A DNA stretch of 24,083 nucleotides. It comes from a virus. Numbering within the stretch: position 1 is the stretch's first letter; the number at the start of each line of letters is the position of its first letter. The position numbers and the translations under genes were made by a program. The stretch is taken from IMG/VR virus record IMGVR_UViG_3300028597_000335, positions 1 through 24,083 of that record; one strand, given 5' to 3'. The notes under the pieces were generated by a model. That model was not told the origin of the DNA. It did not search any database and was given only the letters and a program-made list of their open reading frames with translations. Positions 5,297-15,049 of this stretch are shown here, piece by piece.

Positions 5297-5566
5297 TCAA
5301 TCAGTTGGCAACAGGTAAGCACGATGAATCTGCTTTACCGGGTGGGTGTACACAAGATCGATGTTGCGATTGACGACCTTGAGGTGACCATCTTCCAGCG
5401 AGAACGCTCGCACTGGACCAATCACTTCTTTTGGAGCAGTTCCTAGCTTCCACTCGACAATCAGTTCCAGATTCAGGTGTGCTGGTACCTCATGGAAGTA
5501 CTCATCACCTTTCAGTCGAAGTTCTGGGATGCCCATTGCACTAAGAGAACTCTGTTTACTTTTCAT
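5297..5566 (-). CDS. Hypothetical protein, 89 aa
   Basis: Beta-rich appearance: residues about 15-50 contain LRLKGDEYFHEVPAH and LELIVEWKLG, followed by VRAFSLEDGHLKVVN and a strand-rich end with LVYTHPVKQIHRAYLL. The ATG overlaps the upstream TAA with GAGGAGTTTTA in front. No family recognised. It lies at the downstream end of the run of barrel-like proteins starting at 6483 but does not share their motif. Confidence 0.7.
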   Translation of the reverse strand: MKSKQSSLSAMGIPELRLKGDEYFHEVPAHLNLELIVEWKLGTAPKEVIGPVRAFSLEDGHLKVVNRNIDLVYTHPVKQIHRAYLLPTD

Positions 5567-5934
5567 TAAAACTCCTCGATGAATGCTACAGTGATATTGC
5601 CGTGAACGGTCAGGCTCTCAAGCTCATCCTGATTGTTTAACGTCATCGGCATTGCTGCGATTGTAGCCCATCCTTCATCAGTGTTGCAAGCGATTACGTT
5701 ACGCAAAAGTTCGCCGTCCTTGAAGACGTTTCGGTTACCTCGACCGTCACCTACAAAGTGGTCAGCGTCAGTCACCTCAACAAACTCACCCGGTAGGAGT
5801 TGATTCGGGTCACCATCGTCATCCCGGATATTCACACTCCCGTCATCGTTCGTGCTGAGGACACCGTAGGTGGCTCCAAGGGTGAGACCGAACAAATCTG
5901 CAAAATCATCAAATTTCACCAGACGTACAAACAT
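5566..5934 (-). CDS. Barrel-like protein, array member 4, with added domain, 122 aa
   Basis: Residues 1-55 follow the pattern of the three upstream genes: VRLVKF at the start, GLTLGATYGVL in the middle and LPGEFVEV at the end, which would make a small SH3-like beta barrel. Residues about 56-122 are extra (GDGRGNRNVF, then a helix and two strands) and have no counterpart in the shorter neighbours. The ATG overlaps the upstream TAA (TAATG). I infer duplication followed by acquisition of a C-terminal extension; function unknown. Confidence 0.72.
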   Translation of the reverse strand: MFVRLVKFDDFADLFGLTLGATYGVLSTNDDGSVNIRDDDGDPNQLLPGEFVEVTDADHFVGDGRGNRNVFKDGELLRNVIACNTDEGWATIAAMPMTLNNQDELESLTVHGNITVAFIEEF

Positions 5935-6110
5935 TATTCAACCACCTCATATTCACTGTGATAGACTATTTCAAGATTACCGTCGTCACCGATAACCCAG
6001 TAACCTTCGTTGCTACAAGAGCCTACAACATCATACTCTTTACCGATGGTAAGGTCAATCAGGTATGGGTCAACGTTGTCACCATCAAGCTTTACCAGTT
6101 TGATTTTCAT
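5934..6110 (-). CDS. Barrel-like protein, array member 3, 58 aa
   Basis: Translated directly from a stretch without longer frames. Begins MKIKLVKLDGDN, has DLTIGKEYDVVG at 20-31 and ends YHSEYEVVE. It shares KLVK/R..., LTIG[KR]EYDVV and EYEVV with the neighbour starting at 6280, so the two are clear paralogues. Both boundaries are overlaps (ATGA with the upstream gene, TAATG with the next). Probable all-beta fold; role unknown. Confidence 0.78.
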   Translation of the reverse strand: MKIKLVKLDGDNVDPYLIDLTIGKEYDVVGSCSNEGYWVIGDDGNLEIVYHSEYEVVE

Positions 6111-6280
6111 GAGACCACCTCATATTCACCGGGGTGAATGGTGTTGATACATTCTCCATCGTCGTAGACGTAAACGCAACCAGTTTCTTCTTGGAAATCG
6201 ACAACGTCATATTCACGACCAATGGTCAGACCGTCAAGATCCTCTTCATACACCTGTCGAACAAGTTTAACACGTTTCAT
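6107..6280 (-). CDS. Barrel-like protein, array member 2, 57 aa
   Basis: Starts MKRVKLVRQVYEEDL, contains LTIGREYDVVDF and ends HPGEYEVVS. It aligns almost without gaps with the gene at 5934-6110. ATG overlaps the stop of the GTG-started gene upstream (TGATG), and its stop overlaps the next ATG. Two cysteines (CVYVYDDGEC) flank a turn and are not conserved in the paralogue. Function unknown. Confidence 0.78.
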   Translation of the reverse strand: MKRVKLVRQVYEEDLDGLTIGREYDVVDFQEETGCVYVYDDGECINTIHPGEYEVVS

Positions 6281-6483
6281 CAGACGATCTCCAGATCTTT
6301 TTCATCGTAGCTGTTGTTGTTACCGTTCGACCATTTCACGTGCACAGGCAGGATGCGGTAGTCTCCGATTTCATAGACAACGCCCTGAAGGTCTTCTGGG
6401 TTATGGTCATCGTAATGATCGTCATCAACCCAAGTATCTCGACCTTCTTCCGACAGACGCACAACCGAATCTACTTTGATCAC
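6280..6483 (-). CDS. Barrel-like protein, array member 1, 67 aa
   Basis: Begins VIKVDSVVRL with a GTG start at 6483. GAGGAG stands eight bases upstream, the GTG overlaps the previous stop (GTGA), and no ATG is available. The end, VKWSNGNNNSYDEKDLEIV, matches a common phage SH3/KOW-like pattern (V.WsNG..NSY...DLE). It is more distant from the next three genes than they are from each other but has the same size and predicted strand order. Role unknown. Confidence 0.72.
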   Translation of the reverse strand: MIKVDSVVRLSEEGRDTWVDDDHYDDHNPEDLQGVVYEIGDYRILPVHVKWSNGNNNSYDEKDLEIV

Positions 6484-7686: not shown

Positions 7687-7845
7687 TTAATTTTCAACTT
7701 CTTCAATACGAATGAGATGTGACCAGATTCCGTCCTCATGGAACAAATCCATGACCAAGGTTCCCAATGAGCACAGGTCGGATGCTGCACCCAATGCTTC
7801 ACCAGTTTCCTTATGGAACAACCTGTACTTCGGTTTGTCACTCAT
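7687..7845 (-). CDS. Hypothetical protein, 52 aa
   Basis: MSDKPKYRLFHKETGEALG then a helix around LGTLVMDLFHEDG and ILRI-type end strand. The ATG overlaps the end of the polymerase C-terminal gene (ATGAGTGA), so it is translated after the polymerase piece. A longer in-frame version beginning ten codons upstream would cover polymerase codons and is not favoured. Family not recognised. Confidence 0.7.
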   Translation of the reverse strand: MSDKPKYRLFHKETGEALGAASDLCSLGTLVMDLFHEDGIWSHLIRIEEVEN

Positions 7846-8383
7846 CGTCGTCTTCCTCTTCGTCACCAATAGCATTGATCAGCTTCTCAGCCTTTGCAAA
7901 ATAGTACTCGTAATCGAGGCCCCAGTCAAAGTCTTTCATGTCATTGCACACACGAACGTTCCACTCTTTGTCGATACCCTGTCGGCGTGGTGCCGTGGGG
8001 TCCTTAGCAGAAGCCAGTGGTGGCATGATCTTGACCAGCTTACCACCGTTCACGACAGGGATATAACGGCAGATGTTCTGAATCTGCTCATCCATCTCAA
8101 CGCCACTGAACTCATCAATCGTGACGTACATCAGCTTGTCAGTTCGCTTCACCTTTGTACGCAGAGTGAAGTCGTATGGTTCCTTGTGGTTCAGGATAAA
8201 GTCTTTGTAACTACACAGACCCAGAAGGTCGGCAGCTACAGCCATCGAAATCACCATAGCCGAGTGGTTTTTTTGCCACCCTAACTCCTCAAATGGCAAC
8301 GCTTCATACGCACCCTTGGTCTTAGCTTCACCTGACTCAATCATTGCTCTGAGAGCCTTTACAACCTCTTCATGCGACATCAT
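7838..8383 (-). CDS. Family B DNA polymerase, C-terminal part (thumb), 181 aa
   Basis: This is the missing C-terminal portion of the polymerase encoded at 8595-10361. After about 20 non-conserved residues it carries KTKGAYE (21-27), the KxKGxYE motif that follows the palm strand in phage family B enzymes. Thumb features come next: KNHSAMVISMAVAADLL, NICRYIPVVNGGKLVKI, and a final WNVRVCNDMKDF followed by YEYYFAKAEKLI. It ends in an acidic tail. It has no catalytic residues alone and must associate with the N-terminal protein. AAGGAGACTA precedes two adjacent ATG codons; either may be used. Its stop overlaps the next gene. Confidence 0.82.
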   Translation of the reverse strand: MMSHEEVVKALRAMIESGEAKTKGAYEALPFEELGWQKNHSAMVISMAVAADLLGLCSYKDFILNHKEPYDFTLRTKVKRTDKLMYVTIDEFSGVEMDEQIQNICRYIPVVNGGKLVKIMPPLASAKDPTAPRRQGIDKEWNVRVCNDMKDFDWGLDYEYYFAKAEKLINAIGDEEEDDDE

Positions 8384-8407
8384 TAGTCTCCTTACACCAC
8401 TGACTAA

Positions 8408-8602
8408 TCATTGACCATACCTCTTATTGATTTCGTATTTAAGTGTTTCAGGACTGCACTCGATGACACTCTGGAAGAAACGACCATCCAATCGAAGAGA
8501 CAGCCACCCGTCTCCAGCACCAATTGTTGCCCCGTGCTTTTTGAGTACCACGCGCAGTTCTCTCATGAACTCTACCTGTCTGATTTCTGCTAGGTTAGCC
8601 AT
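8408..8602 (-). CDS. 64-aa protein encoded between the two polymerase parts
   Basis: MANLAEIRQVEFMRELRVVL, a basic helix, then GDGWLSLRLDGRF and a helix ending EINKRYGQ. Its ATG lies inside the last codons of the polymerase N-terminal gene (ATGGCTAA) and it ends 24 bases before the polymerase C-terminal start. It shows no GIY-YIG, HNH or LAGLIDADG motif and no sign of a group I intron or intein, so it is not a recognisable homing element; it could be a remnant or simply a cargo gene. It may be needed for assembly of the split enzyme, but that is speculative. Confidence 0.72.
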   Translation of the reverse strand: MANLAEIRQVEFMRELRVVLKKHGATIGAGDGWLSLRLDGRFFQSVIECSPETLKYEINKRYGQ

Positions 8603-10361
8603 CTACCTTCTTCTCCTTAATCGCGATGTAGTTGTTGACATCCCGGATAAGCATTTTGCTGTAAAGCTCGCCTTCCATCTCAAGACCTGTCAATTTTTCC
8701 CAGTCTGCCACAAGCTGCTTCACCTTGTCCATATCTGATTTGCGAGCGATGAACTCGAAACCGTCAGTGTTGCACATCAACATCTTGGCTCCAACCTGAT
8801 CCATCATAGCCTCAGCCAGCATGCAAAGCAACAGCTGACCGTTGATCGTAATCGACATCGTGAACTGAGGGTCGTACATCGGGCTGAATTTGTCGTTCGA
8901 TGCTCCATACGTTCCGTTCAGTGCCAGCTTCAACGCCTTGTTCTGAGCAGACTTCTTGTCGTAGCTCTTACGTTCAACGTACAGTGCCTGATAGATATCG
9001 CAGAACAGTTCACCAAGGTGTGCTGGGTACAGACGGTTCTTAATCGACAGGTTTGGGTAGTAAGATGCAACGTCATACGTGTAGATCTGCCACTCATCAT
9101 CGGATGTGTGTACACCACGACAGGCCCCATGGATCCCACCTGTTCCGAAGTCAAACTGGAAACCATCAATGACAACGTTCAATGGACCAGAGGTTGCTGG
9201 TTTACCATCAAGCTTCGCCACACCATCGGTCACACGCCAGCAGAAATAGTAGCTACCGGTACCCTTTGGAGACTTCAACTCCTTCATTTCAATCCAACCC
9301 ATTGGGTGGAGGGCCATCAGTTCGTCCACGTGCTTCTGTGTCGGAACGTACCGCTTGTTCTTACTCCCCTGTTCCGGGCAATTCATCTTGATCGACTTGA
9401 CTTTCATGTTGGCATACTTGGCCACATCACCCAGTTCGTGTTCCTCAAGGTCAGACAGCGACCCTTTGGTCTCGATGATAGTCTTGTTCAAGAACCACTG
9501 GTGGATCGCTTGGAACTCTGGTCGATTGAACTTCACGTAAGGCAGAACACAGTCACGCAGATGGATCTGTTTACGCTTGGTCTGCTGCATCTTACGAACC
9601 ATCTTCGGACCCTGCTTCACCATCTTGTAGCAAACACCCGGGCGAGCTTCTTCCAGTCGGTTAACGAACAGTTCCTTGCCGATTTTGGTGTCGTTGAAGT
9701 TGGTACAGTCAAACCCAAACTGCTCAGACAACTCTTCACGCATCACCAAAGCATCATAGCTATAGTGATAGAACTTACAGGTTTCCCATACGTCTTTCTT
9801 GTTATAGCCTACCAACACATCCATCTGTTCCTCGTTGAGGTGCATGCCCGGTGGATACGGAAGGTCTGTAATCTCATCTGAACGCATGTTGTTCTCCAAC
9901 ATCTTCAGGGATGTGGAGCGTGCCCGGTTGTCAAAGTGGTGTACTTTGTACAAGTCAACCTGTGGAATGATCACATCCGCAGACTTGATCTGACTACCGA
10001 ACTGGCTCTCTTTCATTTCTTCAAAGATCGAACACGACTTGGCATACAGACGGTCAGGTGTAATGTAGAAAGTCTGACCCCGACTCTTTGCAAGCTTGGC
10101 GTTCTCCAAGATGTAATGGAGCATTGGATAGTCGTATCCAATGTTGTTAAACCCAACCATCCGATATTTACCCACCTTTACCTTACGCAGGAACTCCAGC
10201 AATTCAGCTGACTCATTCTTGCGAGTAGAGATCTCGTACACTCGCATACCCTTACCGTTGGCATAGCAGGCTGCAAGCGTAAAGATGGTCGGATAGCATT
10301 CGATGTCATAGATGAAATCGGTTGCTAGAAACTTCTTTCCTTCAAATTGTGTAATGTCCAT
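8595..10361 (-). CDS. Family B DNA polymerase, N-terminal part (exonuclease and palm), 588 aa
   Basis: Replicative polymerase with 3'-5' proofreading domain: Exo I D19/E21 (YDIECYP), Exo II around FNNIGYDYP (71-79) and Exo III Y186-D190 (GYNKKD). Palm motif A is D430 in YDVASYYPNL; motif B is KALKLALNGTYGASND (475-490); motif C is CNTDGF with D533 as the only Asp of the usual DTD. The protein stops after VNNYIAIKEKK, exactly where a contiguous enzyme would continue with KxKGxYE; that segment and the thumb are encoded at 7838-8383. ATG at 10361 follows AAGGAGAGAAC. The break falls outside all catalytic motifs, so the enzyme is presumably active as a two-subunit complex. Confidence 0.93.
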   Translation of the reverse strand: MDITQFEGKKFLATDFIYDIECYPTIFTLAACYANGKGMRVYEISTRKNESAELLEFLRKVKVGKYRMVGFNNIGYDYPMLHYILENAKLAKSRGQTFYITPDRLYAKSCSIFEEMKESQFGSQIKSADVIIPQVDLYKVHHFDNRARSTSLKMLENNMRSDEITDLPYPPGMHLNEEQMDVLVGYNKKDVWETCKFYHYSYDALVMREELSEQFGFDCTNFNDTKIGKELFVNRLEEARPGVCYKMVKQGPKMVRKMQQTKRKQIHLRDCVLPYVKFNRPEFQAIHQWFLNKTIIETKGSLSDLEEHELGDVAKYANMKVKSIKMNCPEQGSKNKRYVPTQKHVDELMALHPMGWIEMKELKSPKGTGSYYFCWRVTDGVAKLDGKPATSGPLNVVIDGFQFDFGTGGIHGACRGVHTSDDEWQIYTYDVASYYPNLSIKNRLYPAHLGELFCDIYQALYVERKSYDKKSAQNKALKLALNGTYGASNDKFSPMYDPQFTMSITINGQLLLCMLAEAMMDQVGAKMLMCNTDGFEFIARKSDMDKVKQLVADWEKLTGLEMEGELYSKMLIRDVNNYIAIKEKKVDG

Positions 10362-14133: not shown

Positions 14134-14318
14134 CTCACCTCCATCATTTGAACTGCTGCCTGATACACTTCCCAGTCATTCCGTGCCTGATCCGAGATGT
14201 ACTCACCCTCGAACATCTTCAGATGTGGGGTCTGGCGACCATAACTACCTCTACGAATCTGCCAGTCGTATTTCTTGGTGAACCACTTCTCGAACTCTTC
14301 ACGGATGCTAGGTTTCAT
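14130..14318 (-). CDS. Conserved small phage protein, 62 aa
   Basis: MKPSIREEFEKWFTKKYDW, then a middle with SYGRQTPHLKMF and an end ARNDWEVYQAAVQMM. I recall many phage proteins of this build (REEFE.WF...Y and a final W..YQAA) with no assigned function. The ATG overlaps the stop of the secreted protein upstream (TGATG); a 15-codon upstream extension lacks a ribosome binding site. The GGAG is rather far away (12 bases), pointing to coupling. Confidence 0.72.
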   Translation of the reverse strand: MKPSIREEFEKWFTKKYDWQIRRGSYGRQTPHLKMFEGEYISDQARNDWEVYQAAVQMMEVR

Positions 14319-14665
14319 CAGATGCTTGCTCCAGTAATTGCTTTGATAACCGCTACTCGACATTGCCTATCGATCTCATTTGCGAAGAAATCAACAGCGT
14401 GTCGCTTCATCTCAGCCTGTTCCTCGATAGGTAGAATATAGGCTGCATGAACCATGGTGTCAACACTCGGAGTCAAAACATTTTCATCCTCTAGGAAGCT
14501 ACGGAGGTCATCGATTGTGGTACCACTCTGACGGGCTATCTGAGCCTGTCTGGCGAATTCCATGACTGGTCCACACACGACATCCGCTACGGTGCTTTCC
14601 GTTGCGAGAGCGGTGCTAGAGGACGCTACAGCTAGGGTTAATGCTATTGCTTTGATCAGTTTCAT
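14318..14665 (-). CDS. Secreted protein with conserved cysteine pair, paralogue 2, 115 aa
   Basis: Sec signal peptide: KLIK, hydrophobic ALTLAVASSSTALA, probable cleavage after A21. The mature part is helical with C31 and C102. It matches the upstream gene in spacing from the first cysteine: R at +14, G at +17, D at +21 and L at +23, then VD and Y-x-LP, then the second cysteine followed by a basic hydrophobic helix. A periplasmic disulfide is likely. ATG overlaps the upstream stop (ATGA). The target is unknown. Confidence 0.78.
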   Translation of the reverse strand: MKLIKAIALTLAVASSSTALATESTVADVVCGPVMEFARQAQIARQSGTTIDDLRSFLEDENVLTPSVDTMVHAAYILPIEEQAEMKRHAVDFFANEIDRQCRVAVIKAITGASI

Positions 14666-14955
14666 TTCATCTTACCAGCTTCACGCATTGCTCGAAGACA
14701 GCCACCACGAATCATGTCACCATGCTCTTGTGGATCAGTGGCCCTTGGTAGACTGTAGACATACTCGATTGCGTCCACCTTGGTGCTGTCATCCGCCCAA
14801 GCGTAAATGAGAGAGTCTTTGGAAACTCCTTCAATCCGTTTCTCCATGATAATCTCGTTGAAATCACCAACATGCATGCAGAAGGTGACAGGGTTCGCGT
14901 GTGCTGTGAATGCTGCAACAGACAAAGCTGTGGCCAGTACTAGTTTCTTGATCAT
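14662..14955 (-). CDS. Secreted protein with conserved cysteine pair, paralogue 1, 97 aa
   Basis: The start is the ATG at 14955, with CAGGAGAACCACC in front; the frame continues upstream through the promoter, which is not coding. Sec signal MIKKLVLATALSVAAFTAHA with cleavage expected after A20. Mature protein carries C26 and C86, R40-G43, D47/L49, VDAIEYVYSLP and a C-terminal basic helix. Exported to the periplasm, presumably with an internal disulfide. First gene of the unit started by the promoter at 14983-15011. Function unknown; superinfection exclusion or periplasmic inhibition are possibilities only. Confidence 0.8.
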   Translation of the reverse strand: MIKKLVLATALSVAAFTAHANPVTFCMHVGDFNEIIMEKRIEGVSKDSLIYAWADDSTKVDAIEYVYSLPRATDPQEHGDMIRGGCLRAMREAGKMK

Positions 14956-14982
14956 GGTGGTTCTCCTGTTTAATTGAGCCCA

Positions 14983-15011
14983 GTCTAAGGGATATGACCC
15001 GGGCTTGTCAA
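14983..15011 (-). promoter_or_regulatory. Sigma70-like promoter for secreted pair
   Basis: On the minus strand, TTGACA (15006-15011), 17 bp, TTAGAC (14983-14988). It lies between the terminator at 15023-15045 and the first secreted-protein ATG at 14955, giving a leader of about 20 bases. Confidence 0.72.
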
Positions 15012-15022
15012 CCCTCAGATAC

Positions 15023-15045
15023 GAAAAATCCCGCCGAAGCGGGAT
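15023..15045 (-). terminator. Rho-independent terminator with TTCG loop
   Basis: On the minus strand, a 7-bp stem ATCCCGC/GCGGGAT around TTCG, followed by a run of T residues. It immediately follows the 101-aa membrane protein (15050), separating it from the secreted pair, which has its own promoter. Confidence 0.9.
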
Positions 15046-15049
15046 CATT

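Follow-up and report, generated by a model that had tools for sequence, protein, structure and literature searches.

Of all genes, that of the replicase is normally the least tolerant of a break. In the window, by which we mean the whole stretch of DNA analysed (an IMG/VR record of 24,083 bases), the family B DNA polymerase is encoded by two minus-strand ORFs, polA and polB, with a 64-aa gene between them. This raises the question of how the gene came to be divided, and of whether the small gene lodged in the gap has a part in the divided enzyme.

A whole polymerase in two cistrons

The initial annotation described a polymerase encoded as two proteins around a 64-aa gene, and the three ORFs lie as it described (Table 1). 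The two larger products match adjoining columns of the same DNA polymerase profile, phrog_1252: 53–509 for polA (E 1.7e-146) and 508–657 for polB (E 9.2e-27), which also settles the proposed kinship of the 181-aa protein with polymerases. PolB further matches phrog_15833 (E 1.5e-53); its structure was predicted with a pLDDT of 83, and a Foldseek search of the PDB with the thumb model returned no meaningful match. In an alignment with unsplit relatives (Pseudomonas phage SYP and phages of Nitrincola, Acinetobacter, Rheinheimera and Vibrio), the two parts join without the loss of a single conserved residue, span the whole enzyme and keep the same domain order. The exonuclease and palm motifs attributed to the 588-aa protein were seen in this alignment, and all recognized catalytic motifs (exonuclease and motifs A, B and C) sit in polA, while the thumb follows the palm hairpin in polB. 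The enzyme is a phage family B polymerase of the phrog_1252 type, and polA and polB are complementary cistrons that cover it completely, in the manner of gp43A/gp43B. Motif C reads N-T-D-G, not D-T-D, and does so in all seven unsplit relatives sampled.

Table 1. Features of the divided polymerase locus, in window positions
Feature	Positions	Strand	Description	Basis
polA	8595-10361	minus	588 aa; 3'-5' exonuclease and palm/fingers	phrog_1252 match; alignment with unsplit relatives
polA exonuclease motifs			YDIECYP, VGFNNIGYDYP, YNKKDV	
polA polymerase motifs			A, DVASYYPNLSI; B, KLALNGTYG; C, CNTDG; K-x-Y equivalent, VNNY	
polA C-terminal end			...RDVNNYIAIKEKKVDG	
Shine-Dalgarno-like TAAGGAGAAGAAGG	8606-8619	minus	within final polA codons (I-K-E-K-K), upstream of the 64-aa gene start	
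64-aa gene	8408-8602	minus	function unassigned; helix-three-strand-helix fold, low confidence	ORF call
Shine-Dalgarno-like AAGGAG	8388-8393	minus	upstream of the polB start	
polB N-terminal extension MMSHEEVVKALRAMIESGEA	8324-8383	minus	predicted helix, residues 4-17; among relatives, in split ones only	
polB	7838-8383	minus	181 aa; palm-hairpin second strand (KTKGAYE), then thumb	phrog_1252; phrog_15833

When a profile of the unsplit relatives was aligned to solved archaeal PolB structures, the junction mapped to the turn of their palm hairpin (KKKYAVIDEEGKITTRG), in agreement with the earlier view of a break at a precise point between palm strand and thumb. On the polA side, VNNY is the counterpart of the K-x-Y motif; polB supplies the second hairpin strand and the thumb, and only the turn of this one hairpin differs from the unsplit relatives. 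PolA ends in RDVNNYIAI-KEKKVDG, of which KEKKVDG is a short added tail, and the conserved sequence picks up in polB at KTKGAYE. The start of polB had been taken as unconserved, a description that did not survive comparison: the roughly 18 residues before KTKGAYE, with a helix predicted from the polB model, form an extension common to split relatives. It is present in Pseudomonas phage phiPMW and in the IMG/VR loci L079, L080, L081, L083 and L195, is shorter in L084 and was found in none of the unsplit relatives inspected. In most comparisons, the codon differences within the extension lean to the third position, which fits its translation.

The 64-aa gene overlaps polA by 8 nt (ATGGCTAA), and the polA-terminal Lys-Glu codons, AAGGAG or AAGGAA, recur in most related split phages and double as the Shine-Dalgarno sequence of the next gene. 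PolA and polB lie in different frames with stops between them. An intron, an intein or a programmed frameshift that restores a single polymerase chain is a reading to which we attach next to no weight. The gap of about 212 nt is close in size to the group I introns of some phages, which average about 206 nt (PMC12363816), but no group I or II intron was detected with Rfam in the window or in 12 related loci, RNA folding was no better than that of shuffled sequence (z +0.83), and the parts have separate Shine-Dalgarno sites and starts. Moreover, the insert is wholly different between phages, yet the polB extension is conserved at the protein level. The initial annotation had named a sequencing error as what would undo its claim; such an error, a frameshift or chance is excluded because phiPMW, which was sequenced independently, and several other contigs show the same split.

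Endonucleases at the palm hairpin junction

In the polymerase tree, the window and phiPMW are sisters (support 100/99), L079 joins them next (97/98), and the sister of these three is the unsplit group of SYP, L008, L009 and L038 (100/99). L079, the next relative after phiPMW, carries a GIY-YIG endonuclease of 307 aa at the same break. Ten other loci (L080, L081, L083, L084, L195, L102, L048, L066, L090 and L091) also have an endonuclease at this junction, and the types over all these loci are GIY-YIG, HNH_3 or T5orf172: GIY-YIG in L080, L084, L195 and Acinetobacter phage phiAB441 (L102), HNH_3 in L081, L083 and the more distant L048 and L066. In Klebsiella phages of the genus Jedunavirus, the junction holds HNH_3 in KpVB3 and T5orf172 in BUCT791 and JD001, and the polymerase is unsplit in 1611E-K2-1, RCIP0108 and the related PEAT2, so that fused and endonuclease-occupied states occur within one genus. 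JD001 was considered as a case of a small replacement gene on account of an annotated 63-aa gene; this proved to be the tail of an intact T5orf172-type endonuclease of 276 aa (1684-2514), annotated merely as a 63-aa hypothetical protein.

The split forms do not make up one clade. L080, L081 and L083 are placed among unsplit relatives, and a single clade of the eight related split sequences was rejected (AU p 1.3e-85). Parsimony requires at least five changes of state on the tree of related sequences, counting gains and losses alike, some of which may be re-fusions rather than fresh invasions. The wider tree adds three further split lineages, L048, L066 and Jedunavirus. Given that endonucleases occupy the same junction in several lineages scattered among unsplit relatives, the palm hairpin junction is a homing-endonuclease hotspot. 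Four of the GIY-YIG proteins (those of L080, L084, L195 and L102) are 48–63% identical over nearly their full length although they accompany polymerases of separate lineages, a pattern that horizontal homing would produce; homing together with flanking sequence could also explain why the polB helix appears in several split lineages. A search of open-access papers brought up none that describes the junction as a hotspot, which is weak evidence that there is no such description.

Breaks at other positions were also encountered. The polymerase of phiAB441 (102-2944) is in three pieces, with the second break near window polA residues 364–404; that of Flavobacterium phage FPSV-F12 (2483-5550) is broken in the palm region, ahead of motif B, and a GIY-YIG gene separates its pieces; and locus L207, considered as a case of the same split, is broken elsewhere, through a change of frame.

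At the break in this genome there is no endonuclease gene, and the 64-aa gene stands there alone. We consider it very probable that an endonuclease split the polymerase at the palm turn and was later lost on the branch of the window and phiPMW, leaving a two-subunit enzyme with a small gene in the slot. A free-standing homing endonuclease gene would have inserted between the sequences for the K-x-Y motif and the thumb, where the palm beta-hairpin turns, creating polA and polB. This turn may tolerate a chain break, and each piece, with its own translation signals, would fold with the other into a non-covalent two-subunit polymerase. The ancestor of the window and phiPMW would then have lost the endonuclease, a small accessory gene taking over the vacated, translationally coupled slot, and we propose that the split persisted because precise healing is rare. 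That the window probably lost its invader yet stayed split agrees with the earlier suggestion of an invader lost and replaced, since relatives, including L079, carry GIY-YIG or HNH genes at the exact junction. The window gap itself shows no detectable remnant of an endonuclease, and thus we infer the loss and replacement from the relatives rather than see them.

No endonuclease trace was seen in the phiPMW gap either, as would be expected if the small gene itself had split the polymerase as a moron, with no endonuclease ever present in this clade. Likewise, the T4-type gene 43 of Acinetobacter phage KARL-1 (4992-9679) is split across a 2-kb gap that holds six small genes and no annotated endonuclease. 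We nonetheless regard a moron insertion as quite unlikely, because many relatives with an endonuclease in the gap are broken at this very turn, and because the next branch, L079, has both an endonuclease and the same polB extension.

The small gene in the gap

The closest counterpart of the locus is that of phiPMW (Plaisancevirus), in which the halves are gp196 and gp199, both already labelled DNA polymerase in RefSeq. It shares with the window the polymerase family, the break point, the gene order, the 8-nt overlap of polA with a small gene and the presence of small genes between the halves, and differs in having two 69-aa genes (gp197 and gp198) instead of one 64-aa gene, with proteins 60–66% identical. 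A term search of the phiPMW paper brought up no mention of the split or of an endonuclease origin (PMC5587285). Elsewhere in phiPMW, the genes for DNA ligase and RNA ligase are overlapped by annotated HNH endonuclease genes (gp88/gp89 and gp159/gp160), which indicates that endonucleases are common in phiPMW beyond its polymerase.

The initial annotation had noted the absence of any homing-endonuclease motif from the gap gene, and the searches agree. The 64-aa protein has no Pfam match even at E 10, nothing significant among the PHROGs (phrog_1647, E 0.25) and no relatives by direct search of the phage and IMG/VR collections. A fold model from three sequences (pLDDT 58) predicts a helix, three strands and a helix, at a confidence too low for a structure search. 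By eye, the strands resemble those of an endonuclease or AP2 domain, but comparison with the GIY-YIG and HNH/AP2 profiles gave probabilities of just 0.1 and 1.1%, and we rejected the protein as a remnant of either. Among the 1,209 ORFs of the window and phiPMW, gp198 is the third-ranked non-self match of the 64-aa protein (E 0.85), and the 64-aa protein is the best non-self match of gp198 (E 1.0). If only the two genes at this place are considered from the outset, the E value of 0.85 becomes, by calculation, roughly 0.0014; therefore, common descent of the 64-aa protein and gp198/gp197 appears likely from sequence, though not proven. The 64-aa gene can be described as a small ORFan at a probably vacated site, perhaps akin to the two phiPMW genes.

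The comparison of the junction across related phages that the initial annotation had proposed (small genes in phiPMW, endonucleases elsewhere at the same break) also bears on its other suggestion, that the 64-aa protein has been kept for a reason. As a dedicated partner of the split polymerase, it might bridge or chaperone the halves, or tune their ratio through coupled translation. Two phages with polA proteins that are 66% identical have retained the order polA–small gene–polB, with a small gene at the same place and the same 8-nt overlap, and the weak similarity suggests one alpha-beta-beta-beta-alpha protein family. The small proteins, however, are only 19–25% identical, far less than the polymerase halves, and L079, with the same split and the same polB helix, has an endonuclease and no such protein. 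Other split lineages also manage without it, and phiPMW holds well over 100 other small hypothetical genes. A dedicated partner is therefore unlikely in our view, and it would be a long shot that the small proteins of the window and phiPMW are a third component of the split replicase that, for example, clamps the hairpin or repels new homing endonucleases. Under the favoured history of endonuclease loss, the 64-aa protein would be dispensable for reassembly and activity.

Other small genes were noted in the window, all on the minus strand. At 5566-6483, neighbouring small ORFs (122, 58, 57 and perhaps 67 aa) show, by eye, LTIG.EYDV and EYEVV patterns and resemble a tandem array of paralogues. 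Two adjacent small proteins at 14318-15048 have signal-peptide-like N-terminal parts and both match phrog_2315 (E 6.9e-11 and 1.6e-4). The 297-aa protein at 15603-16496 matches phrog_200 (lipoprotein), and the 'band 7 protein' of SYP, encoded upstream of the helicase gene, is of similar length.

Comparison with other divided polymerases

A single hairpin turn in this phage family B polymerase has been the site of repeated breaks, made by at least three types of endonuclease, and the two-chain enzyme is apparently functional even after the endonuclease has gone. These natural two-subunit polymerases with matched unsplit relatives offer a test bed for split-enzyme reassembly, for whether the extra helix of the thumb evolved in compensation, and for how essential phage genes become permanent multi-subunit forms that house foreign genes.

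The initial annotation named two precedents, which hold in part. Among PAK_P1-like phages, Ab02 is reported to have a polymerase interrupted by an insert akin to one that carries an endonuclease of its own (PMC4482731). The T4-like gp43A/gp43B proteins of Aeromonas phages 44RR and 25 and of Acinetobacter phages are less close than supposed: they too are a phage family B polymerase in two cistrons, but belong to a different polymerase family, and their break, mapped on L9-6 and KARL-1, lies at about residues 500–527 of T4 gp43, in the fingers region and far upstream of motif C, whereas that of the window follows motif C at the palm–thumb hairpin. Splits of the T4-like kind parallel that of the window but occupy another site. 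A seg-type endonuclease sits at the gp43 split of phage 25, whose 43A and 43B proteins co-purify with activity, and an untranslated spacer at that of 44RR (PMC2988022); the polymerase of Acinetobacter phage ZZ1 is also reported to be split (PMC4177764). Presumably the halves of the window polymerase reassemble non-covalently as gp43A and gp43B do, and we infer that the two-chain enzyme is active.

The Jedunavirus phages JD001, KpVB3 and BUCT791 resemble the window in polymerase family, junction and two annotated or evident halves, but retain the endonuclease (HNH_3 or T5orf172), and their polB begins directly at K-x-KG, with no helix. The LUZ24-like phages likewise have a two-part replicase housing several small genes between parts I and II (PMC3890496); theirs, however, is a family A polymerase (PF00476) divided between the exonuclease and polymerase parts. 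The PolB of Methanobacteriales (Kelman et al. 1999) is, like that of the window, a family B polymerase in two polypeptides, but it is a cellular archaeal enzyme, and its split has been attributed to erratic intein excision (PMC4104785).
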